DNA of 64,000 nt, taken from NCBI GenBank assembly GCA_017510785.1, contig JAFWMH010000037.1, forward strand, positions 1 to 64,000, given 5' to 3'. Origin of the DNA: Atopobiaceae bacterium. Lineage in GTDB: Bacteria > Actinomycetota > Coriobacteriia > Coriobacteriales > Atopobiaceae. The notes under the pieces were generated by a model, which had not been told where the DNA came from, made no database searches, and saw only the letters and a program-made list of their open reading frames with translations. The position numbers were made by a program, and so were the translations under genes. This document shows, in pieces, positions 4,539 to 57,048 of this stretch (positions within the stretch are counted from its first letter, which is position 1; each line of letters starts with the position of its first letter).

Positions 4539-5012
4539 GCTGGGTCCTTTCCGTGGCGCTGTGGTCCTCGCGCAGGACGGCGGTGCACTCGAGTGCTGCG
4601 TGCGGTCCGTGTGCGCTGTGCGCCTCGCGTCCCGTTTGGCATACGCCCGCGTGCTCGTGCGCGCCTGGTAGCGTAATCATAGCTAGTTTTGCTTTGCGAG
4701 CATGTTGTAAGCTGTGTGCTGGCGGGGCCGTTTAGCGGACGGCGGCGGCCCTAAGTGGGACCCGCAGCACACGGGTTCGGGCTGTGTGCTGGCGGGGCCG
4801 TTTAGAACGGCGCTGCCTAGAGCGTCCACCCGCCACCCACCGGCCACCCGCCCGCCCGGTCAATGGCCGTTGTGCGTCTCCTCCAAAAACGGTCGCGCGG
4901 CGAGCGCCTGCGAATTGCGACGCTGCGCTGGGGTATTATCACAAATGCGTAAGGTTCGTATGCTATGATATAACTAGAGATAAACCAAATAAGCAAGGAA
5001 ATATCAGCAGTT
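4539..5012. other. Gene-free divergent region with palindromic repeat
   Basis: Lies between the divergent GNAT and hipB-like genes. It holds a full copy of the 59-bp palindrome (4714-4772) and a half copy of its left arm (4784-4805). The last 60 bp before the hipB-like gene are AT-richer and contain TATGAT/TATAAC, which could serve as a -10 element. I see no gene here. Confidence 0.6.
4714..4772. repeat. Subtype B intergenic palindrome (59 bp)
   Basis: Imperfect inverted repeat. Left arm GTGTGCTGGCGGGGCCGTTT, right arm ends CCCGCAGCACAC. The inner TTTAG and CTAA are shared with the copies at 18827 and 53602. A left-arm half copy follows at 4784. It lies between two divergently transcribed genes, so it is not simply a terminator. 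Confidence 0.8.
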
Positions 5013-5964: not shown

Positions 5965-6268
5965 TTATGATTTATGTAGCGGATGGGTGGAGGCCCGCGA
6001 CTCCGTCGGCTGCCACGGGATTCCTCATGTTTGTCGGCCCCCGTGTGCGAGAATGTCCGCAGCGGCCTTGGTTTTATGACTCGCATGTTATCCATGGCCG
6101 CGGGATTCGTCCCCGTGGCCTTTGCGGCGCAAACCGAACATGCTTGCGAGCCAGGTAATCGACCTCGTGGACCCACAGATTGCGGAGTTTATGCCCATTT
6201 TGTATTAGTTGTCCCAATCCGCAGGCGGTACAATAGATAAAGATAATAACGTGGCAAAGGAGGCTCCC
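5965..6268. other. Intergenic region upstream of the NRPS gene
   Basis: No intact gene. A short open stretch just upstream (about 6130-6206, ending DPQIAEFMPILY then stop) looks protein-like and may be the tail of a lost gene. TACAAT at 6229-6234 could be the -10 of the NRPS promoter, but no convincing -35 at 17 nt is seen. Confidence 0.4.
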
Positions 6269-9200
6269 GTGCAAAACGTTGTTGCCCAGCTTCAAGCGAA
6301 CGCTCGCAAGTATGCCAACAAGCCCGCTCTTGTGTTTCACGAACAAACGTTGACGTATGCCCAGCTCAACGACCACTCGGAGCGCATCGCAACGGCTCTT
6401 CTTGCTCGCGGCGCACGTGCGGAAAAGGTTTATCCAATCCTTATGGAACGAAGTCCCGCCTATGTTGCCGCGCTCATGGGCGTTATGCGCGCGGGCGCTG
6501 CGGCGGCTCCTCTGAGCACGACCTATCCGCGGGAGCGCGTAGACCTCATCACGCGTGACTGTGGGGCCGACTTCGTGGTGGACGAGGCCTTTGTGCGGGA
6601 AGCCTTTGCCGCGGCGCCCGCATCGTACGTTTCGTCGGCATCGCGTGGCGAGGATGCATCACAAGTCGACCTCACCCCGTGCGGTGGGGTCGCAGCGGTT
6701 GCGCCGCACGAGCACGTCGAGCCCGGCGATGGTCCCTCGCCCGGCGACGGCCTCGCGTGTCCGCCGAATTCCGCAGCGCTCGTTATCTACACCTCCGGAT
6801 CGACGGGCCAGCCCAAAGGTATTATCCACGAGCATGCAGAGCTCGCCGCCGCCATAGAGCGCACGATGGGTGGGGGAGGCACGTACCCGCGCGCGGAGTC
6901 CGACGTACACCTCTCCATCACGCCATTTTCGTTCGTGGCCATGGTCGTCGACCTGCTCACGCCGTTGTGCGCGGGCAATACCGTCCACATTTTGAGCGAG
7001 GAGGAACGCCGCGAACCGGCTCGTATTGTTGAGTACATCGGCGGCCATGGCATTACTACCATGTTCGCGAGTCCGCAGCTTCTGCGACAGCTTCCGAAGC
7101 TACCCGCGTGCCTGCGCATGGTGGACGTGGGCGGCGAGCGTCTGAGCAACGTTGCGCCGGGCGACGTCGCGATACGAAACGCGTATAGCATGAGCGAAAT
7201 CGCAGGCACCGTGTTCGCGCGCGTGCTTGACCGCGCGTACGAAAACACCCCGCTGGGAGAGCCCCTGCCGGGCATCACTGCCTACCTCTTGGACGAGGAC
7301 GGCAATTCCGTTCCCGAAGGCGAGGAGGGCGAGCTCTATCTTGCCGGTCCTATGGCGCGCGGGTATCTTAATATGCCTGAACTTACGGCGCGCACCTTCC
7401 TGTCGAACCCGTTTGTCGCCGAAGACGGCCAGCCAAGGCTGTTGCGCACGGGCGACATGTTTGTTCACGACGCCGAGCTCGGCTATGTGTACGTCAACCG
7501 CCGCGACTGGATGGTTAAAATTAATGGCCAGCGCGTCGAGCTTGGCGAGGTGGAGGCGCGAATCGCTAGCCACCCGCAGGTGGGCGCCGCCGCATGTCGT
7601 TCCTTCACAGACAAAAGCGGCCAGACGTACCTCGCCGCGTACTATTCTCCGCAGCCCACACCCTCCGCGACGCCCGCGCAGCTCGCAGGACCCGCACGGC
7701 CCGCGCCATCCGTAGACTCCGCGACGCCCGCGCAGCCTGCGGGGCCAGCGTCCGCCGCGCAGCCGACGGATCCTAAGCAGCCCGCGCCTCCCGCGTGCCC
7801 CGCCACGGACGTCGAAGCCGAACCGGTGGACGACGCGCAACTGCGGGACTACCTGGCGAGCTCATTGCCAAGCTACATGATTCCCCGCTTCTTTGTGCGG
7901 CTGGACGAGCTGCCGCTCAACGCCAACGGAAAAATCGACCGCATGGCGTTGCCCGAGCCCAACGCCGATGCCTGGCGCACGGTTTACGCCGCCGCGTCGA
8001 ACGATCGTGAGCGGCTGGTGTGCGCGGCGTTCGAGCAGGCGCTCGAGCTTGACCGCATTGGCATGGACGACGATTTCCTCGCTTTGGGCGGGGACTCCAT
8101 TCGCGTGATGCGGCTCGTGTCGCTTCTTGGCGAAAAGGGCTTGGAGGTGGAGGCGCGTCAGGTGCTCGCGAACCGCACACCGCGCGCCTTGTGCGCGGCG
8201 CTCGACGAGGCCGCGAACACCGTTGCCGGGGATCTACCGCGTCTTGAGGACTATCCCCTCAGCCAAACGCAGCTCGGCATCTACGTTGAGTGCGCGGCGC
8301 GGCCCGACGAGCTCCTCTACCACATCGCCGGCTCGTTGCGTCTCGACGCTGCCGTGGATCCGACGCGTCTCGCGGACGCCCTTCGCGCGGCCGTCGACGC
8401 GCATCCGCAGCTCAAAGGCAGGCTGTTTTTGTCTGATGAAGGCATTCCGCGCATGCGGCGCAACGATGACGAGCCGGCCGCGGTGGAACTTGTGGAGCTC
8501 GCAGACGATGCGGCGTTAAGCAAGTTCCGCGCCTCGTTCATCGTGCCCTTCGACCTCGACGGCGGCGCCCTGTATCGTCTCGCGGTGGCGCGCACGTCCG
8601 ACGCGACGCGCCTGCTCTACGACTTCCACCACATTGTATTCGACGGTACGTCGCTTGGCATCCTTTTGCGCGACGCATCGGCGGCCTATGCTGGCGACAA
8701 GCCCGAGCTTGAGCAGTGGTCCGGCTACGAGGTTGCCCAAGAAGAGGCGATGCGCAGACAAGGTCCTTCCTATGGCCAGGCGCGTGACTTTTATCAAAAG
8801 AACTTTGGCGGTCTTGAGGTGGAGAGTCTGCCAATCCCTGACGCGCTCGACGCGCCGGGCGAGGGCCAAAGCGAGGTTGTCGTCCCCTGCGGACTTGGCG
8901 CAGAGGAACTAGAGGTCTACGCCGGGCAATGCAATACGACGGCCAACGTTGTGGCGATGGCGGCTTTTGCGCTCGCGGTTGGTGCCTACGCCAATGCTGA
9001 CGAGGCGCTCTTTACTACCGTTTACAACGGGCGTGGTGATGGTCGCATGGCGCGTACCGTTTCTATGCTGGTGAAGACCCTGCCCGTCTACGTCGCGTGG
9101 ACAAAAGAAACCGCGCCGGAACAGCTCTTCGCCGCGCTTCAGGGACAGCTCTTGGCATCGATGGCGCACGACGTATATTCGTTTGCCGAGGTATCGGCCG

Positions 9201-12200
9201 AGACGGGTATCACGTCGGACCTTTTGTTTGCGTATCAGGGCAACACCGACCTCGGTGACGAGCTGTGCGGCTCGGCGCTCGTGAGCGAGCCTTTCGAGTT
9301 GGACGAGACGGGCGGCGCCTTTACGGCTCAGCTCTGGCCAGAGGACGGGGAGCTTGCGCTGCATGTGAGCTTCCAGGCCGCTCGCTACACGCCGGGTTTC
9401 GCCGAGACGTTCGGGCGCACGTACGCTACCATCCTGCGCGGGTTGGTTGGGGTTGCGGGCCGGGACGACACCGGGCTGGCCGACGCTGCCGCGAGCCAGG
9501 ACGACGCTGGCCAGGACGGCGCTGGACGGGACGGCGCTGGACGGGACGAAGGCGCGGCTCAGCCGAGTGCCGCAACCCAAGGCCCTGCTGCGCGCGTCGT
9601 GGATATCCCGCTCGTGGACGATGCGACCCTTGCCATTTTGGATTCCTTCAACCAAACCGACGTTCCCTACAACACCGAGGCCACGGTGCTCTCCCTCTTC
9701 GAGGAGGCCGCTGCGACGCATCCCGAGAACGCTGCAGTAGTCTACCAAGACGCGCAGCTCACCTATGCAGAGCTCGACGCGGCCTCCGACGAGCTGGCAG
9801 CGCGCATCGCTGCGACCGGCGCTGGGTTGGACGACGTCGTGTCCATCCTCATTCCGCGCGGGCTCTGGATGACCGTTGCCCCACTCGCTGCGATGAAGGC
9901 CGGCTGTGCCTATCAGCCGCTCGACCCGACGTATCCGCCAGAGCGCTTGAGCTTCATGGTGAAGGACGCCAGCACCGCCGTGCTCGTAACAACGCCCACC
10001 CTTCGCGAACGCGTGCAGGGCTACGACGGCTCTGTCGTGTTGCTTGACGGTGACCCGGCGACACTCTTGGCCGGTGGCTCGGTGCGCACGGGCGACGGTA
10101 CCGCCGCGTGCACGGCCGACGTTGCCGCCATGAGCGTGGCCGGCGGCCCCGCCGCAACGCGCGAGCTTGTATCTGCGCTGCCCAAGCCCACGGCCGACTC
10201 GTGCATGATTCTTCTCTACACCTCCGGCTCCACCGGCGTGCCCAAGGGCGTTCAACTTACGCACGGTAACCTCGTGTGCTTTATTGCATGGTATCATCGC
10301 CTCTTCCAGCTTGGCGCCGAGGATCGCGTGGGTGCCTACGCGTCCTTCGGCTTCGACGCGAACATGATGGACATGTACTCCGCGCTCACGGCGGGTGCTG
10401 CCGTCGTCATCGTTCCCGAGGAGCTGCGGCTCGAGATTTTGGGCATGGCCAACTACCTCGACGCCCGCGGGGTAACGCACCTCTTTCTTACCACGCAGGT
10501 GGGACGACAATTCGTTTTGTACACCCGTCCGACTCGCCTGCGCTATCTCCTCGTGGGTGGCGAAAAGCTCGTTACGGTGGATCCGCCCGAGGGTTACGGA
10601 CTCTACAACATATATGGACCCACCGAGGCGACTGTGTGCATTACGACGTATCATGTAACATCGCGCGAGGAGAACATCGCCGTTGGCCCCGCTCTCGATA
10701 ACGTGCGCCTCTACGTAATGGACGCCCATGGCCGGCGCGTGCCGCCCGGCGCCTGCGGCAACCTGCTTGCGGCGGGCCCGCATGTGGGCATTGGATACCT
10801 TAATCGAGCAGACAAAACCGCAGAGGTGTTTGTTCGCAACCCGTTCTTCGAAGAAGGCGGGGAGGACGATGGTGAGCTGCGCCTGGGAATGGGTGGTCGT
10901 GGTCTCAACGATCTCGTGGACTCTCGGGAAGGCACGCCCACGCCGCACTTGGAGCGGGCGTATTACACGGGCGACGTGGTGCGTTACCGCGCGGACGGCG
11001 CACTCGAGTTCGTGGGCCGCGCCGACGGCCAGGTGAAGATCCGCGGCTTCCGCATCGAGCTCGCCGAGGTGGAGGGCGTCGTGCGGGAGTTCGGCGGCAT
11101 AACCGACGCCACGGTGGCAGCCTTCGAAAAACCCTCCGGCGGCAAGTACGTCGCGGCCTACGTCGTCTCCGACGAGACCGTAGACCAGGCCGAGCTCGCC
11201 GCGTTTATCCGCGAGCGCAAGCCGCCCTACATGGTGCCCGAGGTCATCATGCAAATTGACGCCATCCCACTCAACCAAAACGGCAAGGTTAACCGCCGCG
11301 CACTGCCCGAGCCCGTGCATGCCGAGCGCGAGCACGTTGGGCCGGCAACCGAGGCACAGCGCCGCATCTTCGCGTGCGCAGCAGAGGCCCTCGGCCACGA
11401 GGACTTCGGCGCAAACACCGACCTTTACGAAGCCGGGCTCACCTCCATTAGTTCCATCCAACTCAACGCGCTTATCTCCCGCGAGTTCGGTGTGGACCTG
11501 CGCACGTCCGACCTGCGCGCCAATCCTACGGTGATTGCGCTCGAAAGCTTCCTGCAAAGCCACGCCGACGTTGCCGAGGAGGCCTATGAGTCCATCGTTA
11601 TGCGCAATCCCACGGCCGCCTGCCCGCTTACCGCCAGCCAGCAGGGCGTTTTTGTGGACTGCGTGGCGAATCCCGGCAGCACGATGTACAACATTCCCTA
11701 CTTGCTGCGCATCGGCTCCGGCGTCGACCTCAAGCGGCTTGCCCAGGCGGTTAGCGTGGCGGTCGCAGCGCATCCGTGCCTGGACGTGCGACTCGCGCTC
11801 GACGACGACGGCGAGGTGCGCCAACGCCTTGCGAACGATGCCGAGCCGTTTGTGCCGCCGATTGTTGAGGGGTTGAACACTCCGACGCTCGTTCGTCCGT
11901 TCGACCTTTTGGGCGCGCGCCTTTTCCGCGTGGAGATTCATCGCACCGCCGACGGAACGTACCTCTTCATCGATGCCCACCACATCGTGGCCGACGGCAC
12001 CTCGCTCGCCGTGCTCTTAGACGACATAAACCATGCCTATGCGGGCGAGGCCATCGAGCCGGAAGCCTATAGCATGCTGGACGTCGCCTTAGCAGAGAAT
12101 GACCTGCGAAAGAGCGAGGCTTACACGGAGGCCGAGGCGTTCTACCGCGAAACGTATGCCGACTGCCAGCCCACGTCCGACCTTGCGCACGATCACGAGT

Positions 12201-15200
12201 TGTCGCCCGCCCGCTGTGCCTCGTTGCTCCGCACGAGTGCGGACGTCTCGCCTGCTGCGCTCGAGGCTCGCTGCAAGGAGCTTGGCGTGACGCCCAACGC
12301 GTTCTTCGTGGGTGCGTTCGGCGCCGTGCTCGCGCGGTATCGTTTCCAGCGCGAGGCTACCTTCGTCACGATTTATCATGGTCGCAATGAGGCGAAGCTT
12401 GCGCGTTCGGTGGGCATGTTCGTAAAAACGCTGCCCGTGCGCGTGGATACGTCGCTTGCCGCGGCAGACTATTTTGCTGCTGTGCGCGACCTCTTGATGG
12501 GCAACATGGACCACGACATCTTCCCGTTTGCCGAAGTCAACCGCATGTGTGGCATCGATCCCACCACGCTTTTGGCGTATCAGGGGTCGAACTTTAACGT
12601 GCGGGAAATCTGCGGCGAGCCTGCCGAGCACATGCTGTTGGAACTCGATGTGGCCAAGGAGCCGCTGAGCATGTCTGTTGCGGTGGACGGCGATGCGCAC
12701 GTTTACGACCTGCAGTATCGTGCCGACCTCTACGACGAAACGACGGCCGGCTGGTTCCTCGATAACCTCGAACTCGCGCTCAACCAACTTATTGAGGGAC
12801 GCGATCCCGCCGACCTCCAGTTGCTCTTCGACGAGGCGCCGTGCATGGTGGACGTGCCTGCGCACGCAGATAAAACCTTCGTGGACCTCTTTGCCGAGTC
12901 GGTCGCGGCCTATCCGGCAAACGTTGCCGTGCGCGATAGCGAAAGCTCGCTCACCTACGCCGAGCTCGACGCGGCCTCCGCTGCAGTGGCGGCGCGTCTG
13001 CGCCAAACGGGCTTTGGGCCAGAGCAGTATGCCTGCGTGCTGGCCGGTCGCACGAAGGAGTTCGTGGTGGGCGTTATCGGCGTCATGCGTGCCGGCGGTG
13101 CGTACGTGCCCATGGACCCGGACTATCCCACCGACCGCTTGGAGTACATGCTGGAAAACAGCGGCGCGCGGCATCTTTTGCTCATGCCCGAGTATGCCGA
13201 CCTCGTGAGCAGCTTCGATGGCGTTCGCGTGGACCTTTCCAACGTCGCGGGTTTGTGCGCTGCGTCCTCCATTTCTTCGGGCGCGGGTGAGCGAGCGGGC
13301 TCGATCGGGCGAGCAGCCGCGGGGACGGGTTTGTCTGCTGCGCCTGCCACTTCTTCGGGCGCGGGCGCCGACGCCGACGCTGCCGGGCGAACGGACGTGA
13401 CCGCGGACGCGAACTTGTCTCCTGCGCCTACGGCGGCAGAGCTCGAGTCCTGGCGTCCGAGTCCGCGCAACGTGGCCTACATGATTTACACCTCCGGCTC
13501 CACCGGCAAGCCCAAGGGCGTGATGCTTGAGCATCGAAACCTCATGAACCTCATCGAGCACCTTCAGGGTTTCCAAAAGCCCACGCTGGGCGACCTGTAC
13601 GGCGAGTTCTCCAGCTTCTGCTTCGACGCCTCGGTGCACGACCTCTTCGTGCCCTTTACCGTGGGTGCTGGTCTCTACATCATTCCTGCTGAGGTACGTC
13701 AGGACGCCGTCGCGGTGTGTCAAACTTTCCGGCGCGAGCCCATCACGATTGCAACTATGCCGACTCAGATGGGCGAGCTCGTGGTGGACCAGCTTGAGGG
13801 CGATTGTGCCCTGCGCATGATCTTCCTCGGCGGAGAGAAGTTCAAGCGGTTCTACGATCGTCCCTACGTGGTCGTGAACGGCTATGGTCCCACCGAGAAC
13901 ACCGTGGAGTCTACCACCTTTGTGGTGGATAAGCCGCAGGAGAACATTCCCATTGGCCGTTCCATCCTCAACGTGCGTAGCTATGTGGTGGACGAGCAGA
14001 TGCGGCGCGTGCCCGTGGGGGTGCCCGGCGAACTCGTGCATGCGGGTAGGTCGGTTGCGCGCGGGTATCATAAACTGCCCGAGAAGACTGCGGCGGCTTT
14101 CGTAGAGAACCCCTTTGCCACGTGCGAGGACGAGCGCGTGATGTATCGTACGGGCGATCAGGTGCGCATGCGGGGCGACGGCAACATGCTCTATATTGGG
14201 CGCATCGACAACCAGGTGAAGATTCGCGGATACCGCGTGGAGCTTGGCGAGATTGAGGGCGCCATGCTTTCGTACGATGGTGTGGACGAGGTTGCCGTTA
14301 TTGCCTCGGACCTCAACGGCACCACTCACATCGTGGGCTATTGGACGGGCGTGGACGTTGGCGAGGACGTGTGGCACGAGTTCCTCGCACCGCTGATACC
14401 CGACTACATGATGCCGAGCTTCTTTGTGCACTTGGATGCCATGCCCGTTACTTCTGGTGGAAAGATCGACCGCCGTGCATTGCCGGCGCCTGGGCAAAGT
14501 GTTGTGGAAGCGGGTGGCTACGTCGCGCCGACCACCGACCTCGAGCGGCAGCTGTGCGAGATGTTCCAGAAGGCTTTGGGTCGTGAACGCGTGGGCTTGG
14601 ATGACGATTTCTTTGAGCTGGGTGGTACGTCGCTGAGCGCGAGCAAGGTGGCGGTGATGTGCTTCAATGCGCAGCTGCCCATCGTGTATGCCGACATCTT
14701 CGAGCATCGCTGCGTGCGCGGGCTGGCGACCATGGTGCAGGGTGATGCACCGGATGCAGATGCGGCCGGTGAGTCCGTCGCAGCGTTTGGGAATGCGGCT
14801 GAACGGGTGTCAACAAACGACCAACGTTCGGCTGCGGCGCAACCCGCGTCCACGGCGCAAAGCGCACCCGCAATGCAGCCCGGTTCTACGGCGCGGTCTG
14901 GTTCCGCAACGCAGGATGGTTCCACGGCACAGGCCGTGCCATCAGCGCAGTCCGCTTCCGCGGAACAGGCCACTGCTACAGCGCAAGACTCTCCCGCAAC
15001 ATGGGGCAGCGACCGAATGATTTTGTCTGCTACAACAACTGGTGCCGGGCACGACCTCACTGCGGCGCCAGACGCTTACGACTACTCAAGCATCAATCGG
15101 CTGCTCGCGGAAAACGTCTCGGAAAACGTGGACTACGTGGCGGACGAGGGCCTCGGCGACGTGCTCCTTACGGGCGCCACGGGCTTTTTGGGTATTCACG

Positions 15201-16258
15201 TGCTGCGCGATTTTTTGGAGACTCACGAGGGTCGCATTTGGTGCGTCGTGCGCAAGGGGAGGTTCCAAAGCGCGGAAAGCCGACTCGCGCACCTGCTTAT
15301 GTATTACTTCGCGAAGCCGTATACCGAGCTCTTTGGCGAGCGTATTCTGTGCGTTGAGGCAGATATCGCCAATCCCGCAGATGTTGCGTCGCTCGACCGA
15401 ATCCCCTTCCGCACGCTGGTGAACTGCGCCGCTTGCGTAAAACACTTTGCCGCTGGCGATGAACTCGATCGCGCCAACGTTGCGGGCGTGAGTAACTTGG
15501 TGGACCTCTGCGCGCGTGGTCGCAGACGCTTGGTGCACATATCGACCATATCTACGGCGGGGGAGAGCTTCAAGGGTAAACCCGATCCCTCCCATCGTTT
15601 GACCGAGGCCGAGCTGTACTTTGGACAGCGCATCAGCAACGCGTACGTGCGCAGCAAGTTCCTCTCGGAGCGTTGCGTGTTGCAGGCCGTGGCGGATGGG
15701 CGCATCGAGGGCAAGATTATTCGCGTGGGCAACCTCATGAGTCGTGCGTCGGACGGGGAGTTCCAAATCAACAGTATTACCAACGGCTTCTTGCGTTTGC
15801 TGCGCGGTTACGTCATTGTGGGCGGTTATCCCGTGAGTCAGATGGATGTGGAGAATGAGTATTCTCCTATAGACTCCGTGGCGTCTGCCGTGTTGAGGCT
15901 GGGTAGGGCTTCGTCACGTTTTTCGGTTTTCCATGCGTGCAACAATCACAAGGTGCAGATGGGCGACGGAATATTCGCGCTGCGCGAACTCGGCTTCGGC
16001 ATTCGCGTTGTGGGCGATGACTACTTTGCCAAGATGCTTGCGGACTATAGCGCCAAGCACGAGGGCTCGGATGCGGTAAGCGGGCTCATCGCATACGCCA
16101 CGCATAATGGACAGAACGCCTCCTACCTAGGCTACGACAACACCTTTACCACTAAGGCCCTGTATCGTTTGGGCTGGAAGTGGCCCATTACGGATGATGC
16201 CTACCTCAAAGGCACCATAGAGAAGTTGGACGAGCTCGGCTTCTTTGAGGACGACTAG
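6269..16258 (+). CDS. Three-module nonribosomal peptide synthetase with terminal reductase (A-T-C-A-T-C-A-T-R)
   Basis: A 3329-residue assembly line. GTG start chosen for AAAGGAGG five bases upstream; an in-frame TTG at 6209 is less likely. Domains: A1 (1-570, YTSGSTGQPKG at 174, closing NGKIDRMAL), T1 (LGGDS, Ser610), C1 (HHIVFDG at 787), A2 (about 1120-1690, YTSGSTGVPKG at 1317, YGPTEATV), T2 (AGLTS, Ser1726), C2 (HHIVADG at 1904), A3 (about 2195-2740, YTSGSTGKPKG at 2407, YGPTENTV), T3 (LGGTS, Ser2788) and a thioester-reductase domain (GATGFLG at 2969, catalytic-type YVRSK). The R domain should release the chain by NAD(P)H reduction as an aldehyde or alcohol. A1 has no upstream C domain, so it loads the starter. 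Its core-4 motif reads FVAMVVD where amino-acid A domains have FDAxxxx, so the amine-binding Asp is Val; a non-amino-acid starter is likely. Hand-aligned codes are DAMFLGIVC(K) for A2 (Leu-like) and DAHTFGGVE(K) for A3 (partly Glu-like). Four low-complexity inserts sit between or inside domains. No MbtH, PPTase or exporter is adjacent. Confidence 0.93.
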   Translation: MQNVVAQLQANARKYANKPALVFHEQTLTYAQLNDHSERIATALLARGARAEKVYPILMERSPAYVAALMGVMRAGAAAAPLSTTYPRERVDLITRDCGADFVVDEAFVREAFAAAPASYVSSASRGEDASQVDLTPCGGVAAVAPHEHVEPGDGPSPGDGLACPPNSAALVIYTSGSTGQPKGIIHEHAELAAAIERTMGGGGTYPRAESDVHLSITPFSFVAMVVDLLTPLCAGNTVHILSEEERREPARIVEYIGGHGITTMFASPQLLRQLPKLPACLRMVDVGGERLSNVAPGDVAIRNAYSMSEIAGTVFARVLDRAYENTPLGEPLPGITAYLLDEDGNSVPEGEEGELYLAGPMARGYLNMPELTARTFLSNPFVAEDGQPRLLRTGDMFVHDAELGYVYVNRRDWMVKINGQRVELGEVEARIASHPQVGAAACRSFTDKSGQTYLAAYYSPQPTPSATPAQLAGPARPAPSVDSATPAQPAGPASAAQPTDPKQPAPPACPATDVEAEPVDDAQLRDYLASSLPSYMIPRFFVRLDELPLNANGKIDRMALPEPNADAWRTVYAAASNDRERLVCAAFEQALELDRIGMDDDFLALGGDSIRVMRLVSLLGEKGLEVEARQVLANRTPRALCAALDEAANTVAGDLPRLEDYPLSQTQLGIYVECAARPDELLYHIAGSLRLDAAVDPTRLADALRAAVDAHPQLKGRLFLSDEGIPRMRRNDDEPAAVELVELADDAALSKFRASFIVPFDLDGGALYRLAVARTSDATRLLYDFHHIVFDGTSLGILLRDASAAYAGDKPELEQWSGYEVAQEEAMRRQGPSYGQARDFYQKNFGGLEVESLPIPDALDAPGEGQSEVVVPCGLGAEELEVYAGQCNTTANVVAMAAFALAVGAYANADEALFTTVYNGRGDGRMARTVSMLVKTLPVYVAWTKETAPEQLFAALQGQLLASMAHDVYSFAEVSAETGITSDLLFAYQGNTDLGDELCGSALVSEPFELDETGGAFTAQLWPEDGELALHVSFQAARYTPGFAETFGRTYATILRGLVGVAGRDDTGLADAAASQDDAGQDGAGRDGAGRDEGAAQPSAATQGPAARVVDIPLVDDATLAILDSFNQTDVPYNTEATVLSLFEEAAATHPENAAVVYQDAQLTYAELDAASDELAARIAATGAGLDDVVSILIPRGLWMTVAPLAAMKAGCAYQPLDPTYPPERLSFMVKDASTAVLVTTPTLRERVQGYDGSVVLLDGDPATLLAGGSVRTGDGTAACTADVAAMSVAGGPAATRELVSALPKPTADSCMILLYTSGSTGVPKGVQLTHGNLVCFIAWYHRLFQLGAEDRVGAYASFGFDANMMDMYSALTAGAAVVIVPEELRLEILGMANYLDARGVTHLFLTTQVGRQFVLYTRPTRLRYLLVGGEKLVTVDPPEGYGLYNIYGPTEATVCITTYHVTSREENIAVGPALDNVRLYVMDAHGRRVPPGACGNLLAAGPHVGIGYLNRADKTAEVFVRNPFFEEGGEDDGELRLGMGGRGLNDLVDSREGTPTPHLERAYYTGDVVRYRADGALEFVGRADGQVKIRGFRIELAEVEGVVREFGGITDATVAAFEKPSGGKYVAAYVVSDETVDQAELAAFIRERKPPYMVPEVIMQIDAIPLNQNGKVNRRALPEPVHAEREHVGPATEAQRRIFACAAEALGHEDFGANTDLYEAGLTSISSIQLNALISREFGVDLRTSDLRANPTVIALESFLQSHADVAEEAYESIVMRNPTAACPLTASQQGVFVDCVANPGSTMYNIPYLLRIGSGVDLKRLAQAVSVAVAAHPCLDVRLALDDDGEVRQRLANDAEPFVPPIVEGLNTPTLVRPFDLLGARLFRVEIHRTADGTYLFIDAHHIVADGTSLAVLLDDINHAYAGEAIEPEAYSMLDVALAENDLRKSEAYTEAEAFYRETYADCQPTSDLAHDHELSPARCASLLRTSADVSPAALEARCKELGVTPNAFFVGAFGAVLARYRFQREATFVTIYHGRNEAKLARSVGMFVKTLPVRVDTSLAAADYFAAVRDLLMGNMDHDIFPFAEVNRMCGIDPTTLLAYQGSNFNVREICGEPAEHMLLELDVAKEPLSMSVAVDGDAHVYDLQYRADLYDETTAGWFLDNLELALNQLIEGRDPADLQLLFDEAPCMVDVPAHADKTFVDLFAESVAAYPANVAVRDSESSLTYAELDAASAAVAARLRQTGFGPEQYACVLAGRTKEFVVGVIGVMRAGGAYVPMDPDYPTDRLEYMLENSGARHLLLMPEYADLVSSFDGVRVDLSNVAGLCAASSISSGAGERAGSIGRAAAGTGLSAAPATSSGAGADADAAGRTDVTADANLSPAPTAAELESWRPSPRNVAYMIYTSGSTGKPKGVMLEHRNLMNLIEHLQGFQKPTLGDLYGEFSSFCFDASVHDLFVPFTVGAGLYIIPAEVRQDAVAVCQTFRREPITIATMPTQMGELVVDQLEGDCALRMIFLGGEKFKRFYDRPYVVVNGYGPTENTVESTTFVVDKPQENIPIGRSILNVRSYVVDEQMRRVPVGVPGELVHAGRSVARGYHKLPEKTAAAFVENPFATCEDERVMYRTGDQVRMRGDGNMLYIGRIDNQVKIRGYRVELGEIEGAMLSYDGVDEVAVIASDLNGTTHIVGYWTGVDVGEDVWHEFLAPLIPDYMMPSFFVHLDAMPVTSGGKIDRRALPAPGQSVVEAGGYVAPTTDLERQLCEMFQKALGRERVGLDDDFFELGGTSLSASKVAVMCFNAQLPIVYADIFEHRCVRGLATMVQGDAPDADAAGESVAAFGNAAERVSTNDQRSAAAQPASTAQSAPAMQPGSTARSGSATQDGSTAQAVPSAQSASAEQATATAQDSPATWGSDRMILSATTTGAGHDLTAAPDAYDYSSINRLLAENVSENVDYVADEGLGDVLLTGATGFLGIHVLRDFLETHEGRIWCVVRKGRFQSAESRLAHLLMYYFAKPYTELFGERILCVEADIANPADVASLDRIPFRTLVNCAACVKHFAAGDELDRANVAGVSNLVDLCARGRRRLVHISTISTAGESFKGKPDPSHRLTEAELYFGQRISNAYVRSKFLSERCVLQAVADGRIEGKIIRVGNLMSRASDGEFQINSITNGFLRLLRGYVIVGGYPVSQMDVENEYSPIDSVASAVLRLGRASSRFSVFHACNNHKVQMGDGIFALRELGFGIRVVGDDYFAKMLADYSAKHEGSDAVSGLIAYATHNGQNASYLGYDNTFTTKALYRLGWKWPITDDAYLKGTIEKLDELGFFEDD

Positions 16259-18658: not shown

Positions 18659-18700
18659 TAATCTTTAAGGACGGGGCGGCAGCTCACAACGCCTCTCGGC

Positions 18701-18815
18701 CGAAATCTGTCGGAAAACCGACCTCTGCAAATCGCCCGTGCCGAATCTGACGGAAAATACACCTTTGCAACGCACCTGAGACGAAATCTGACGGAAAATG
18801 AATCTTCGCAACCGT
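18701..18815. repeat. Three degenerate ~40-bp tandem repeats
   Basis: The core CGAAATCTGACGGAAAAT occurs, with small changes, at 18701, 18742 and 18782, each followed about 6 nt later by a CTTTGCAA-like block. The spacing is 40-41 bp. There are no unique spacers as in CRISPR; the regular spacing would suit protein binding sites or a decaying satellite. Confidence 0.75.
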
Positions 18816-18826
18816 TAGGCAAGGTT

Positions 18827-18885
18827 GTGTACCACGGGGGCCGTTTAGCCGACAAAAGCCATGCTAAGTGGCCCTCCCGGTACAC
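18827..18885. repeat. Subtype B intergenic palindrome (59 bp)
   Basis: Left arm GTGTACCACGGGGGCCGTTT, right arm CTAAGTGGCCCTCCCGGTAC then AC. It is preceded by CGTTAGGCAAGGTTGTGT, which is repeated (one change) right after the element, where a second left arm starts (18896-18921). So this is a full copy followed by a half copy, as at 4714 and 40357. Confidence 0.85.
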
Positions 18886-18955
18886 GTTAGGCAAGGTCGT
18901 GTGCCGGCGGGGCCGTTTAGCACACATCGCCGCGCCCCCTTCGGGCATCCGCCCC

Positions 18956-32990: not shown

Positions 32991-33144
32991 TCTATCGCTT
33001 GCTTCGGATGTGTCGCGGGTGCGCCTTTCCCCGCGGACGACTCTGCGCGCCACGCTACGAGTCTCGCGCCACGGGTGCACCGTGTGCTTTGGATACAATG
33101 TAACTGCTTGCAACCAGCGCGTTTGGCGTCCCAATAATGCTAAT

Positions 33145-33204
33145 GGGTGCCAAACGTGCCATTTAGCAGACAAAACCACGGCCAAGGTGGCCCAAACGGC
33201 ACCC
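33145..33204. repeat. Subtype A intergenic palindrome (60 bp), first of a dimer
   Basis: Left end GGGTGCCAAACGTGCCATTT, right end GGTGGCCCAAACGGCACCC. The core GCCATTTAGCAGACAAAA closely matches the subtype B copy at 18827. It is followed after exactly 12 nt by the second copy. Confidence 0.9.
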
Positions 33205-33216
33205 ATCGTTGAAGTT

Positions 33217-33276
33217 GGGTGCCAAACGGCCCATTTGCGACCCGAATCGGCGGGCGAAATGTCCCAAACGACACCC
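33217..33276. repeat. Subtype A intergenic palindrome (60 bp), second of a dimer
   Basis: Left end GGGTGCCAAACGGCCCATTT, right end GTCCCAAACGACACCC. Its middle (CCCGAATCGGCGGGC) is found, inverted, in the copy at 36505. Confidence 0.9.
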
Positions 33277-33326
33277 AACCCTGGCAACGGCCAAAACGCC
33301 GCGGGCGAATCGCGCCGCGGGCACGC

Positions 33327-34148: not shown

Positions 34149-36428
34149 ATGAAGAGTGGGTTACGTCGCTTGCTGGCGATTGTTGTGAGCGTTGCGTTCG
34201 TGGCGGGATGCGCCATGCCGGGAGAATCTGGGCGGACAGGGTCGAGCGAGCCGGAAGGGCCGGGCGCAACTTGGCCGGTCGCCTCAGTTGCCACGAAAGA
34301 ACCCGGCGGGACGCCGTGGAAGGCATGGAACATCCGTGGTGCGATGACAAGCGACACGCAGGTGCGGCTCGAAGACGACTTTTACACGGCCGCAACGCGT
34401 GACTCCATTCTGCAAAGAAACGAGCATCCCAACGGCTCGATGTCGGTGGACTTCGACCGCGAGTACGAAATCGCCGACGAGATGTTCGATTTTCTCACAA
34501 GCGACAATCGAGGTTCCGACGAGACGCAGCACGACTTGGATTGCTTACGTTCGCTTTACGACCTATACCAAAACTGGGAAGAGCGCGATGCCGACGGGGT
34601 CGAGCCGGTTCGTCCCGTCGTGGAACGGCTGCGTTCCATCAAGACGATTGACGAGTTCACCGAGTGGTTGTGCTCCGACGACTTTAGGCTTACGGGCCAA
34701 TGGATTGTGAACAGCCAGGAAAACACGACGGAGACGAACATCTCTCTGTTTGCGTTGGAGCTCTACAACGATGTGGATGGCGAGATCGTTGACCCCGGCG
34801 ATTACGTAGTGGTGGCCAACCGTCCCGTGTTTTCTCTTGCTCCGTTCGACTGGGACGACGAGGACGTGCTAAACGGCGGAAAGGTGGACGAGGAGTGTTT
34901 GCAACAGCTGCGCGAAGCTTCGAATACGGTCGACATTGCTTACAGGATGCTGCAACACATGGGTTTCAGCGAGGACGAGGCTGCCGACATCGTGGCGGGC
35001 GCTGCCGCCCTGGAGGCCGTTATTGATGAAAGTGTTGATTCCGAAGGTGACACGTACGCTATGTATTCTCATGACGAGTTTGCCGCAGCATGCGAGGGCG
35101 GTTTTCCGCTCAACCGCATCGTGGACGCCTATGGGTACACGGATGCTAGCGCGTACGTAATGAACGATCCAACGTATTTCGAGGAGATGGGCGACTTCTA
35201 TACGCAGGACAACCTCGAATTCTTGGTGTCGCACGCTCTTACGAGTTTGGCCTTCCAGTGCAGTACTCTGCTCGATTCCGAGGCGATGGGGATTGCCTAT
35301 GACGCCCACGGTGACGACTACATTAGCGACGAGCTGCTGGAGGCGGCGGCGGAACAGGCGGAAGAGGAGGGTCAGTCTGAGTCTGCCGGGGTCGACTCAA
35401 CAGCCGACGCCGTGCCAGACATGACCGAGGAGGAATACGCGGCGTTTGTCCGCCACGATGGGATGGCGTATCTGCGCAGTGCGTTGCCCACGAGCTTCGC
35501 CAAGGTGTATGTGGAGAACTTCTACGATCCGCACACAACGGAGGAAGTCGACAGCATGGTAAAGCGCTACATTGCCGCCTACGAAAAGATGCTTATGGCC
35601 GAGGACTGGCTCTCGCTCGAAACGCGCCAGCAAGCAGTAGAGAAACTCCGCGCCATGAGGGTGTACCTCGCGCATCCTAGCAAGTGGGCGCCAACGAACA
35701 CGCTACGTATTGCCTCGCACGACGAGGGCGGGTCCCTGTTTACGCAAACCCGGTCCCTCGCAGCATACGACTTGGAGCAGGAGCTCTACATGCTTCGCCA
35801 TCCTGAAGAAGGTGAGTACTGGCGCAACTGCATGGATGTGAATGCGTACTATTCGGTTGGCACTAACTCAATAACGATTGGCGCGGGGATTCTGGGTGGT
35901 ATCTACTGGCCCGAAGGCGGTTCGTTTGAAGAGAAGCTCGCGGGGATGGGCGTCACCATTGGCCATGAGATAAGCCATGCCTTCGACAACACCGGTGCAT
36001 ATTTCGATAAAAACGGTGCGTACGAGTCATGGTGGACCGAAGACGATCTCGCCGCGTTTGAGCAGCGCGTCCAGCGCGTCGTGGAGTGTTTCGACGCCAT
36101 CGATCCCGATGGAAACGGGCCGTACGACGGTGCGAATGTTTGCGACGAGGCGATTGCCGACATGGGCGGAATGAAGGTATCGATGGCGGTGGCGTCCGAG
36201 GAAAAGGCGTTTGACTACGATGCGTTCTTCCGTGCCTATGCTAACGGCTGGTCGTCGGTACCGACGCCGGAGTACATTGCCTTGCTGCTCGAAGTCGACA
36301 CCCATCCCGTCGATAGTCACCGCGTGAACGTGCCCGTGCGCGAGACTGACGAGTTTTACAAAACATACGCCATTGAAAAAAGCGATGGCATGTGGCTCGA
36401 TCCCGCCCAGCGCGTTTCGGTGTGGTAG
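34149..36428 (+). CDS. M13-family zinc metallopeptidase, lipoprotein
   Basis: 759 residues. The start at MKSGLRRLL follows TGGAG and gives a lipoprotein signal (LLAIVVSVAFVAGC), so the enzyme sits on the outer face of the membrane. The long N-terminal region (to about 550) is the helical M13_N domain. The catalytic part has IGHEISHAFDNTGAYFD (HExxH zinc site) and EAIADMGG (third ligand Glu, matching the ENxADxGG motif of neprilysin/PepO). A short acidic/Ser insert lies near residue 400. M13 enzymes cut small peptides. TTGTCTCAT (34093) occurs upstream. An in-frame ATG at 34101 would add 16 residues before the signal and has a poor ribosome site. Confidence 0.92.
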   Translation: MKSGLRRLLAIVVSVAFVAGCAMPGESGRTGSSEPEGPGATWPVASVATKEPGGTPWKAWNIRGAMTSDTQVRLEDDFYTAATRDSILQRNEHPNGSMSVDFDREYEIADEMFDFLTSDNRGSDETQHDLDCLRSLYDLYQNWEERDADGVEPVRPVVERLRSIKTIDEFTEWLCSDDFRLTGQWIVNSQENTTETNISLFALELYNDVDGEIVDPGDYVVVANRPVFSLAPFDWDDEDVLNGGKVDEECLQQLREASNTVDIAYRMLQHMGFSEDEAADIVAGAAALEAVIDESVDSEGDTYAMYSHDEFAAACEGGFPLNRIVDAYGYTDASAYVMNDPTYFEEMGDFYTQDNLEFLVSHALTSLAFQCSTLLDSEAMGIAYDAHGDDYISDELLEAAAEQAEEEGQSESAGVDSTADAVPDMTEEEYAAFVRHDGMAYLRSALPTSFAKVYVENFYDPHTTEEVDSMVKRYIAAYEKMLMAEDWLSLETRQQAVEKLRAMRVYLAHPSKWAPTNTLRIASHDEGGSLFTQTRSLAAYDLEQELYMLRHPEEGEYWRNCMDVNAYYSVGTNSITIGAGILGGIYWPEGGSFEEKLAGMGVTIGHEISHAFDNTGAYFDKNGAYESWWTEDDLAAFEQRVQRVVECFDAIDPDGNGPYDGANVCDEAIADMGGMKVSMAVASEEKAFDYDAFFRAYANGWSSVPTPEYIALLLEVDTHPVDSHRVNVPVRETDEFYKTYAIEKSDGMWLDPAQRVSVW

Positions 36429-36606
36429 GTCGCTGCGGGGCGTTTGACACCTGCAGCCCAAACGGCGCCCGACCTAACCCCAAACGGCGCCCGACCTTCG
36501 TAATGGGTGCCGTTTGGGCCATCTGGCCCGCCGATTCGGGCTGCAAATGGGCCGTTTGGCACCCATCCTCAAAGAGCCGCCGTACGTTGCCCAGTCGCCT
36601 TTTCGG
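36429..36606. repeat. Subtype A palindrome (36505-36564) and two half copies
   Basis: The full 60-bp copy at 36505-36564 is the reverse complement of the form at 33217 (both carry CGAATCGGCGGGC in opposite sense). Before it, CCCAAACGGCGCCCGACC is repeated twice (36457 and 36480). The copy lies between the convergent stops of the M13 gene and the ABC remnant. Confidence 0.88.
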
Positions 36607-37583
36607 CTACGGCTCCACGACGCCCCGCTGCGTAAACTCGAGTACGCGGTCGCATGCCGCGAGCGCTGCGGGACGATGTGCCGCCACAATCACCGTACGA
36701 CCAGACAAGTCTCGTAAGTTGGCAAGCAGCTGCGCCTCGGTCGTTGCGTCGAGCGCGCTAGTGGCTTCGTCTAGCAGCAGGATGGGAGCGCCCGAAAACA
36801 CTGCGCGGGCAACAGATACGCGCTGCATCTGCCCTTCCGAAAGCCCCGCGCCACGCTCGCCAAGACGGGTGTCGAGTCCTTTGGGGAGCTTACGGACGAA
36901 TTTGTCTGCGCACGCCGTGTGAAGGGCTGCCCAAACCCGAGCATCATCCGAGGCCGATTCGGGCTTGCCGAGAGCCACGACCTCGCGAAGCGACCCTTCA
37001 AGAAGTTGGTTGCCCTGAGGCACGTAGGCAAACAGTCGCCGCCAAGTAGCATCAACTGTCAATCGGAGCCATCCTCCAGGTGCAAATACACCTCGCCCGC
37101 ATCGGGTCGGTGTGCTCCCATGAGCAGTCGCAGGGCCGTGGACTTTCCGCAACCGCCGTGTCCAGCCAACGCCACGAACTCGTGTTTGTGCACCTCGATT
37201 GAAATTCCTGCAACCGCCGCCAGCATGCCCTCCTTGGAAAGTGCTGCCACGTCCTCGGTGGCGGGCCAATAGGTGTACGAAACGTTCACGGCCACGCACG
37301 ACCCATGCACGAGCACTACGCCGTGTGCAGGCATCGCCTCCGCGATTTTGCGGTACACGGCGAGCGTTTCCAGGTAGGCGTCCGTGTAATCGTTGGGCGT
37401 ACGCTCGGCGGTAGCGTCGGCGGCATCCGAACGCTTGCGCTCGAAGTCTATGTCGCCCTGCGTGGTGTGCACCGCAAAGTTGGGCTCGCCGCTGCTGCGA
37501 TACTCATGGCATAGATCGTGCACGTCTGCATACAGCGATTCCACACGTACTGTCATCCCGGCAAACCTATACGTGCCCATCAT
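36607..37583 (-). pseudogene. Chimeric remnant: HprK-like N-terminus joined to frameshifted ABC exporter ATPase
   Basis: Reading from 37583, the first ~105 codons resemble the N-terminal part of HPr-kinase-like proteins (TDAYLETLAVYRKIAEAMPA, then HGVVLVHGSCVAV). They break off where that family would have its P-loop and continue as an ABC exporter nucleotide-binding domain (FVALAGHGGCGKSTALRLL, Walker A). A frameshift near 37065 (one C apparently lost from a TCCCGA-type run) ends this frame. The rest of the domain lies in the next frame: YVPQGNQLLEG, the signature LSEGQMQRVSVARA, Walker B ILLLDEATSALD and the switch His (AAHRPAA). There is no membrane domain. HprK-like proteins and ABC exporters are neighbours in some RiPP/lasso peptide loci, so a deletion may have fused two such genes. 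Confidence 0.65.
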
Positions 37584-53579: not shown

Positions 53580-53601
53580 GCGTTTGTCATGCGACCTGTA
53601 C

Positions 53602-53660
53602 GTGTACCGGTGGGGCCACTTAGCCAGGGTTTTGTCCGCTAAACGGCTCCCTGGGTACAC
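53602..53660. repeat. Subtype B intergenic palindrome (59 bp)
   Basis: Left arm GTGTACCGGTGGGGCCACTT, right arm CTAAACGGCTCCCTGGGTAC then AC. Nearly the reverse complement of the copy at 18827. It lies between convergent genes, just past a terminator. Confidence 0.88.
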
Positions 53661-53693
53661 AACCTGACGACATGTGTTGGCGGTCTTATCGCA

Positions 53694-55916: not shown

Positions 55917-56192
55917 TATTGGCCTCCAATGGTTGGGATTTGATGATTTCGAAGCGATGGCCACGGATGTTGGGCGACGTGCTGCGTCCGTTGGGCCTTG
56001 CGCTGGCTCTTGCATTCGGGGCAGAGCGCTTAGGGCATAAGCGTCTCCAGCTTAACACGCATTCTTGTTTACAGCTGATTGTAGACGATGCGGATGATGG
56101 CCGAGTTGCCGACCTTACAAAGCTTGCGGAAACGCGAAAAGCGGGTCCCATTCCGGCCGTCGGATTGGGGTCCCGGATCCGGCAGTCGGAAT

Positions 56193-56252
56193 GGGTGCCA
56201 AAAGTGCCACCTGTCGCCTTGCGCCCTTGTCAAAAAGGCGCAAACGACACCC
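56193..56252. repeat. Subtype A palindrome (60 bp), first of a dimer
   Basis: Begins GGGTGCCAAAAGTGCCACCT and ends CGCAAACGACACCC. Followed by a 12-nt spacer (ATCGCCAAAATT) and the second copy, the same arrangement as at 33145. Confidence 0.85.
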
Positions 56253-56264
56253 ATCGCCAAAATT

Positions 56265-56324
56265 GGGTGCCAAACGGGCCATTTGGCGGGCAAAAACGCA
56301 CGCAAAGTGTCCCGAGCGACACCC
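56265..56324. repeat. Subtype A palindrome (60 bp), second of a dimer
   Basis: Begins GGGTGCCAAACGGGCCATTT and ends AGTGTCCCGAGCGACACCC. A further half copy in the opposite sense begins at 56434. Confidence 0.88.
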
Positions 56325-56537
56325 ATTTGCAACATTGGAATCGCGGAAAACGCCCAAAACGGCCCCTTGGCGAGGTTTGTAGGGCCAGGGCCGGTTGTGC
56401 GGGGTTGGCCAAGGGCCGCCCAGGCCGCGACAATGGGTGTTGTTTGTGCCATTTCTCCCGCCGAATCGAGCAGAAGATACTTGGTCTCCAGTCCCCCATA
56501 CGGATTATGGCGCATGTTTGAAAAGCTTCACGATGCG

Positions 56538-56622
56538 GCCAGATGTGCTGCTATGCCAGAAGTGCTGCTATGCTACAAGAATTGCTATGCCAGATGTGCT
56601 GCTATGCCAGAGGTATTGCTAT
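56538..56622. repeat. Five tandem 17-bp repeats
   Basis: Five contiguous 17-mers on the theme GCCAGATGTGCTGCTAT; units 1 and 4 are identical, the others differ at 1-7 positions. No spacers. Confidence 0.92.
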
Positions 56623-57048
56623 ACTAGTCGCTTTGCATTAGGAAAAGGGTGCGGTGGGCTGCGGGGCTGCGGCTTGCCTTTGCTCTGTACAGCGGCTTAT
56701 AACGGCTTCGCTTCGAGCATGTAACTAGCGTTTTGCAAGGTACAAACGCGTGGTAACGTACGCATGAGTTGGTTGGTTTTGGATGGGACGTGCGGAAGGT
56801 TGCCACGCGCGAAATGCTGTTATCTTGGCCAAGGAATTGCGCGTGCGTGCTGGCGCATGTCGGGTTAGGGCATGCATGCACGCGTTCGGGGGGTGCGGGT
56901 TTGAAGGTGCAGTGGGCTACCGGTACGGAACGGGCTGAGGGTGTACTCTGGCCGGCACGCGACGGCGACCGGTTCGCGTCTGACGGATGTGCCGCGTCGG
57001 CGGGACCGGGCGGGCCGTGCCGACGACTGAATGTGGAGGTGGACGGAA

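Follow-up and report, generated by a model that had tools for sequence, protein, structure and literature searches.

The window analysed here, a 64,000-nucleotide stretch of contig JAFWMH010000037.1 from an Atopobiaceae bacterium, contains a pair of imperfect palindromes at 33144–33277, which we assign to a repeat family termed A (Table 1). When the outer T/A pair is counted, each palindrome is 62 bp long (TGGGTG...CACCCA) and the gap between them 10 bp; the original prediction of two 60-bp palindromes joined by 12 bp describes the same arrangement counted one base further in. The predicted recurrence of this plan at 56193–56324 is confirmed, the second site following the 62+10+62 layout of the first at 56192–56325. 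Two further sites had been listed as single copies or halves: that at 36504 is a whole unit, lying on the minus strand and flanked by the genes for an M13-type peptidase (ending at 36428) and an ABC transporter (ending at 36607), and that at 56434 is a half arm only. Across the window the arm pattern is matched 22 times as compared with 4.6 expected, a number that no shuffle attained, and the enrichment is not due to chance. Elsewhere in the window, a 17-bp tandem repeat (GCCAGATGTGCTGCTAT) occupies 56538–56626, just downstream of the second array, and a very long open reading frame (6209–16258; 3349 aa), whose DNA carries repeated adenylation-type motifs, probably encodes an NRPS.

Table 1. 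Palindromic units of families A and B, and their spacers and remnants, in the window
Feature	Coordinates	Strand	Description
A unit 1	33144..33205	+	62 bp, core type I (AGCAGACAAAACCACGGCCA)
Spacer between A units 1 and 2	33206..33215	+	10 bp, TCGTTGAAGT
A unit 2	33216..33277	+	62 bp, core type II (GCGACCCGAATCGGCGGGCG)
Single complete A unit	36504..36565	-	Between two convergent genes
Truncated unit beside the 36504 unit	36479..36493	-	Opposite arm orientation (CGGGCGCCGTTTGGG), after 10-bp spacer
A unit	56192..56253	+	62 bp, core type III-like (...GCGCCCTTGTC...)
Spacer in the 56192 pair	56254..56263	+	10 bp, TCGCCAAAAT
A unit	56264..56325	+	62 bp, core type I
Decayed half arm only	56434..56454	+	TGGGTGTTGTTTGTGCCATTT
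Family B unit	18826..18886	+	TGTGTACC...GGTACACG, homologous inner core; second partial B from 18898, step 72
Single B unit	53601..53661	-	Sister family B
B-like unit and start of a second	4713..4803	+	Step 70

The A unit, with its 72-bp frame, has imperfect terminal inverted repeats: two arms of 21 bp, the second inverted, enclose a variable core of 20 bp and are followed by the 10-bp spacer. The arms consist of TGGGTGCCAAANGKGMCATNT and its imperfect inverse, in which an AAAC block is direct in both arms and the remainder is inverted. Positions 1–11 and 50–62 are mostly 92–99% conserved, with a G/A mixture at position 56, and the mean identity between units is 83% in the arms as compared with 44% in the core (positions 22–41). 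The cores fall into three recurrent types, two of which are also found inverted. A CRISPR array was ruled out for these units, as the arms are imperfect and the cores belong to recurrent types.

The family is abundant in this genome. With the 134-bp pair as a BLAST query, 93 matches were obtained (best other match E=1e-36), a sequence-only profile built on 62 units gave about 150, and curation gave 61 arrays with at least 127 units. Of 66 inner spacers, 62 measure 10 bp, and the conservation of length and spacer that had been predicted therefore holds genome-wide, the copies being neither few nor randomly spaced. Units are 62 bp long in 120 of 127 instances, a regularity that may be somewhat inflated because it is partly a product of the unit-finding procedure, in which an exact-length pattern was applied first and a profile of 62 positions next, while full length was assigned by hand to a few partial ends. 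The arms alternate in orientation with two spacings, 20 and 10, and units stand head-to-tail in all arrays except one of the 61.

These arrays do not support the dimer as the unit that is mobilised or maintained. The repeat unit is a 72-bp head-to-tail repeat, because array sizes fall smoothly from 26 single units, 17 pairs and 10 triples to 8 larger arrays (four of 4, three of 5 and one of 6 units); arrays of the related subfamily A' reach about ten units, and array ends are often truncated. A truncated unit, with its spacer kept, is present at nearly half of the ends (right, 26/60; left, 28/60), compared with about 2/60 under the null. Some of these end units are reversed and their cut points are scattered; on this ground the idea that arrays stop at a fixed outer end was rejected. 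Units mostly find their closest match outside their own array (69 cases, as compared with 18 inside it). Furthermore, there is almost no linkage among left arm, core and right arm (Mantel r 0.07–0.16), and the units have therefore been reshuffled. Target-site duplications at A arrays are not above chance (10 observed versus 7.1 expected).

A sister family and a sister subfamily accompany A in this genome. Family B (TGTGTACC...GGTACACG) has 84 BLAST matches, with spacers of about 8–12 bp. Subfamily A' retains A's ends and 62+10 frame around a different interior; it also has 84 BLAST matches, some of which are cross-hits to A, and its arrays run at a 71–72-bp step. Other repeats were noted beside these families. 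Three copies of a 40–41-bp repeat (AATCTGACGGAAAA..GACCTCTGCAA) lie at 18687–18811 of the window and are related to a palindromic module found elsewhere in the genome inside the elements termed E below, and a further tandem palindromic repeat (GCGAGGTTTGTAGGG..CCCTACAAACCTCGC) adjoins an IS-like end at L202:900–1330.

The A arrays are intergenic in 60 of 61 cases, the single exception looking like a spurious gene call. Convergent gene pairs surround 15 of the 48 classifiable arrays, as compared with 17% of the window's intergenic bases; this placement, somewhat enriched, speaks for an ordinary intrinsic terminator or RNA hairpin, although the context counts are approximate, the gene finder being a home-made and crude one based on codon usage. 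Against such a function, terminator-like sites show no excess in the region tested (4 found versus 4.1 expected), the arrays are present in both orientations, fold z-scores are mostly modest, and the four 31-nt unit halves tested fold no better than shuffles. No covariation of pairing positions was detected in 62–86 units, the arm pairs standing at the level of independence, and conservation therefore acts on DNA and not on RNA hairpins. An Rfam search of the window returned no match. We consider a terminator or RNA-hairpin identity very improbable.

The layout of family A resembles that of enterobacterial BIME/REP clusters (as defined in PMC2817692 and PMC8266576). Like them, A is intergenic, high in copy number and species-specific, with IS insertions nearby, insertion of IS into REPs being known (PMC1525189), and its arms alternate in orientation with two spacing classes in tandem mosaic arrays. 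Unlike them, its whole units run head-to-tail in a 62+10 frame around a very variable core. The BIME analogy drawn in the original prediction thus stands for the layout (high-copy intergenic palindromes, 127 units, in regular alternating tandem mosaics) and fails elsewhere: no cognate RAYT flanked by the repeats was found in this draft genome, and A lacks a hairpin of 20–50 nt with an adjoining GTAG or CGTC foot.

The question of a RAYT was addressed by comparing this genome with 15 congeners, every one of which has at least one Y1_Tnp match. The TnpA_REP that the original prediction had suggested looking for was found here neither with the Pfam Y1_Tnp model nor with an 11-sequence profile of congener Y1 proteins, which gave nothing convincing (best E 0.08); a tblastn match in L122 was rejected, as it contains stops and matches a non-RAYT N-terminal stretch. 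The absence of a RAYT is thus strongly supported, although not final, because the assembly is a draft (81 contigs, 96.4% complete) with several contigs breaking at or near arrays. By comparison, among the 12 congener Y1 loci inspected, from 10 genomes, a RAYT-like gene has clear REPIN-like palindromes on both sides in G072 (L163) and G074 (L164). Related but less regular repeats stand beside such a gene in G071, G064, G062, G063, G065 and G075; in G076 the repeats are clear on one side only, and in G073 the reading frame is broken. The other congener RAYT-like Y1 loci are L165–L174, several of which are flanked by related repeats. It is conceivable that the A arrays are genuine REP/BIME elements mobilised by a RAYT that is missing from the draft or was recently lost: the congeners provide the precedent, and a contig left out of the assembly could carry such a gene with arrays on its borders. 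However, the A unit lacks the foot and its halves lack the folding described above, and the REPINs beside congener RAYTs, inverted palindromic units of about 65 bp that are likewise intergenic, differ in design from A, A' and B, their sequence and layout being unrelated. On balance we regard this explanation as doubtful.

A vehicle was found for a part of the arrays. Element E, with inverted ends TATGCTCCCCAAGATGCTTCATA, gives 93 matches as compared with 3 in controls. Its ends match those that bound IS1595-type transposase genes in congeners G063 and G072; in G063 the IS1595-type element has an apparent 8-bp duplication (ACCGTGGA). Six of 16 inward-facing E end pairs examined are flanked by 7–12-bp repeats, compared with 1.4 expected by shuffling. 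E is accordingly a MITE by its terminal inverted repeats, which match an IS, and by its target-site duplication. A curated A array is enclosed in 5 of these 16 end pairs, and some A arrays travel as passengers in this orphan IS1595-type MITE. A search of this genome for the IS1595 domain found none, and the inspected candidate pairs of E ends lack a transposase, so that an autonomous partner here was rejected. The congener copies themselves are irregular: that at L223 (G072) looks broken, and in that at L224 (G063) the zinc-ribbon and DDE parts are split between two overlapping frames. Beyond the five enclosed arrays, other arrays have one E end nearby, and most A arrays, those of the window included, lie outside recognised E ends. 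E is the vehicle and the A unit, at whose arrays no target-site duplication is apparent, is not. The non-exhaustive search for an IS with ends matching the palindromes, likewise suggested by the original prediction, found none, and the MITE is the only mobile vehicle observed.

Two further IS-like repeats, with ends CGTCCCGAAAAGTGGTG and CGTCCCGATATGTGGTG, are represented by 13 ends at the threshold used. They are candidate IS on the grounds that their ends are multi-copy and lie at contig ends; no transposase was seen for them. Seven of the 13 are no more than about 35 bp away from A arrays (C4:2990, C8:19630, C16:115, C33:114, C51:114, C52:3306 and C58:95 in G000), two more lie in A' arrays and one at the array junction of an E element. 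The A arrays with IS-like ends close by, most of them at contig ends, are apparent insertion hot spots.

The arrays enclosed by E also invite comparison with BOX of Streptococcus pneumoniae (boxA-boxB(n)-boxC), which is presumed to be non-autonomous and mobile (PMC3049150). Like BOX, they are composites in which two outer ends enclose tandem inner modules whose number varies; a further likeness is the enrichment of A arrays between convergent genes. This two-end layout is seen for the arrays within the five E end pairs and not for most arrays, which lie outside recognised E ends; moreover, the module here is a 62-bp imperfect palindrome, and the outer ends are of IS1595 type with target-site duplications.

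Taken together, we favour, with a little more than even confidence, the reading that the pair is a small array of species-specific intergenic tandem imperfect palindromes, a non-coding, largely selfish, BIME/BOX-like repeat that is independent of a RAYT. The main routes of spread would be exchange between arrays, by recombination or gene conversion, which would keep the 72-bp register and shuffle arms and cores, and riding on the IS1595-type MITE, while 72-bp slippage would alter copy number. Recombination across 20–50 imperfect bases is plausible. What probably maintains the arms and frame is a putative protein, either a transposase or a nucleoid protein, that binds double-stranded DNA and recognises each arm on its own. 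Two observations weigh against this explanation. Under purely neutral decay the arms and frame would be much less well preserved than they are, which points to constraint, and A arrays lack target-site duplications above chance, so that transfer outside the MITE is hypothetical.

The constraint may instead reflect host use, with a species-specific DNA-binding protein bound at the arms and the arrays serving as nucleoid, topology or partition sites. Both arms share a degenerate logo (TGGGTGYC-NNNN-GKGMC...) whose degenerate positions are uncorrelated, as for two half-sites read independently; the frame is kept while the interior changes, also in the 62+10-bp units of A'; and two CCAAACGG motifs lie 42 bp apart, which would correspond to about 4 helical turns. 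However, many arrays are truncated, the number of copies varies irregularly from locus to locus, IS-like repeats insert near arrays without apparent penalty, and the sampled congeners share the anatomy without sharing the sequences. Such a host function is a minority possibility, to which we give perhaps one chance for every three against it.

Family A is species-specific among the genomes sampled. Models of A and B matched nothing in the 15 congeners, and among 140 genomes of the family only weak traces of A were seen, in 4. A pattern scan of named genomes, which may omit the records of the window's own genome, gave two unrelated single matches, and nothing useful on such repeats was found in the literature on Coriobacteria, Actinobacteria or Eggerthella. 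The congeners sampled nevertheless carry arrays of similar anatomy and unrelated sequence. Family Q of G074 consists of tandem palindromes (10 matched units) spaced at exactly 73 bp, with a single step of 146, and other palindrome arrays at 62–63, about 102, 63 and 74 bp occur in the sampled G074, G072 and G073. A contrasting case is L195:235–1634 in G072, a regular CRISPR array with a pitch of 66–68 and the repeat GTCGCCCCTCGCATGAGGGGCGTGGATTGAAAT. A, A' and family Q, unrelated in sequence and alike in anatomy, may hint at a second, RAYT-independent class of palindromic satellite in the genus, with imperfect palindromes of about 54–62 bp, a fixed pitch of about 72–73 bp and free inner sequence, framed by a putative protein or copying mechanism that would measure length and not sequence; we put this forward as a speculative and rather unlikely generalisation.

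The spread of REP and BIME elements is usually credited to RAYT transposases. In this genome a large BIME-like family is present with no RAYT found, whereas the congeners have RAYT-like genes together with their own REPINs. This makes the genome a natural test case for two questions: whether arrays of this kind can form and hold a strict frame without a RAYT, and what their arms serve.
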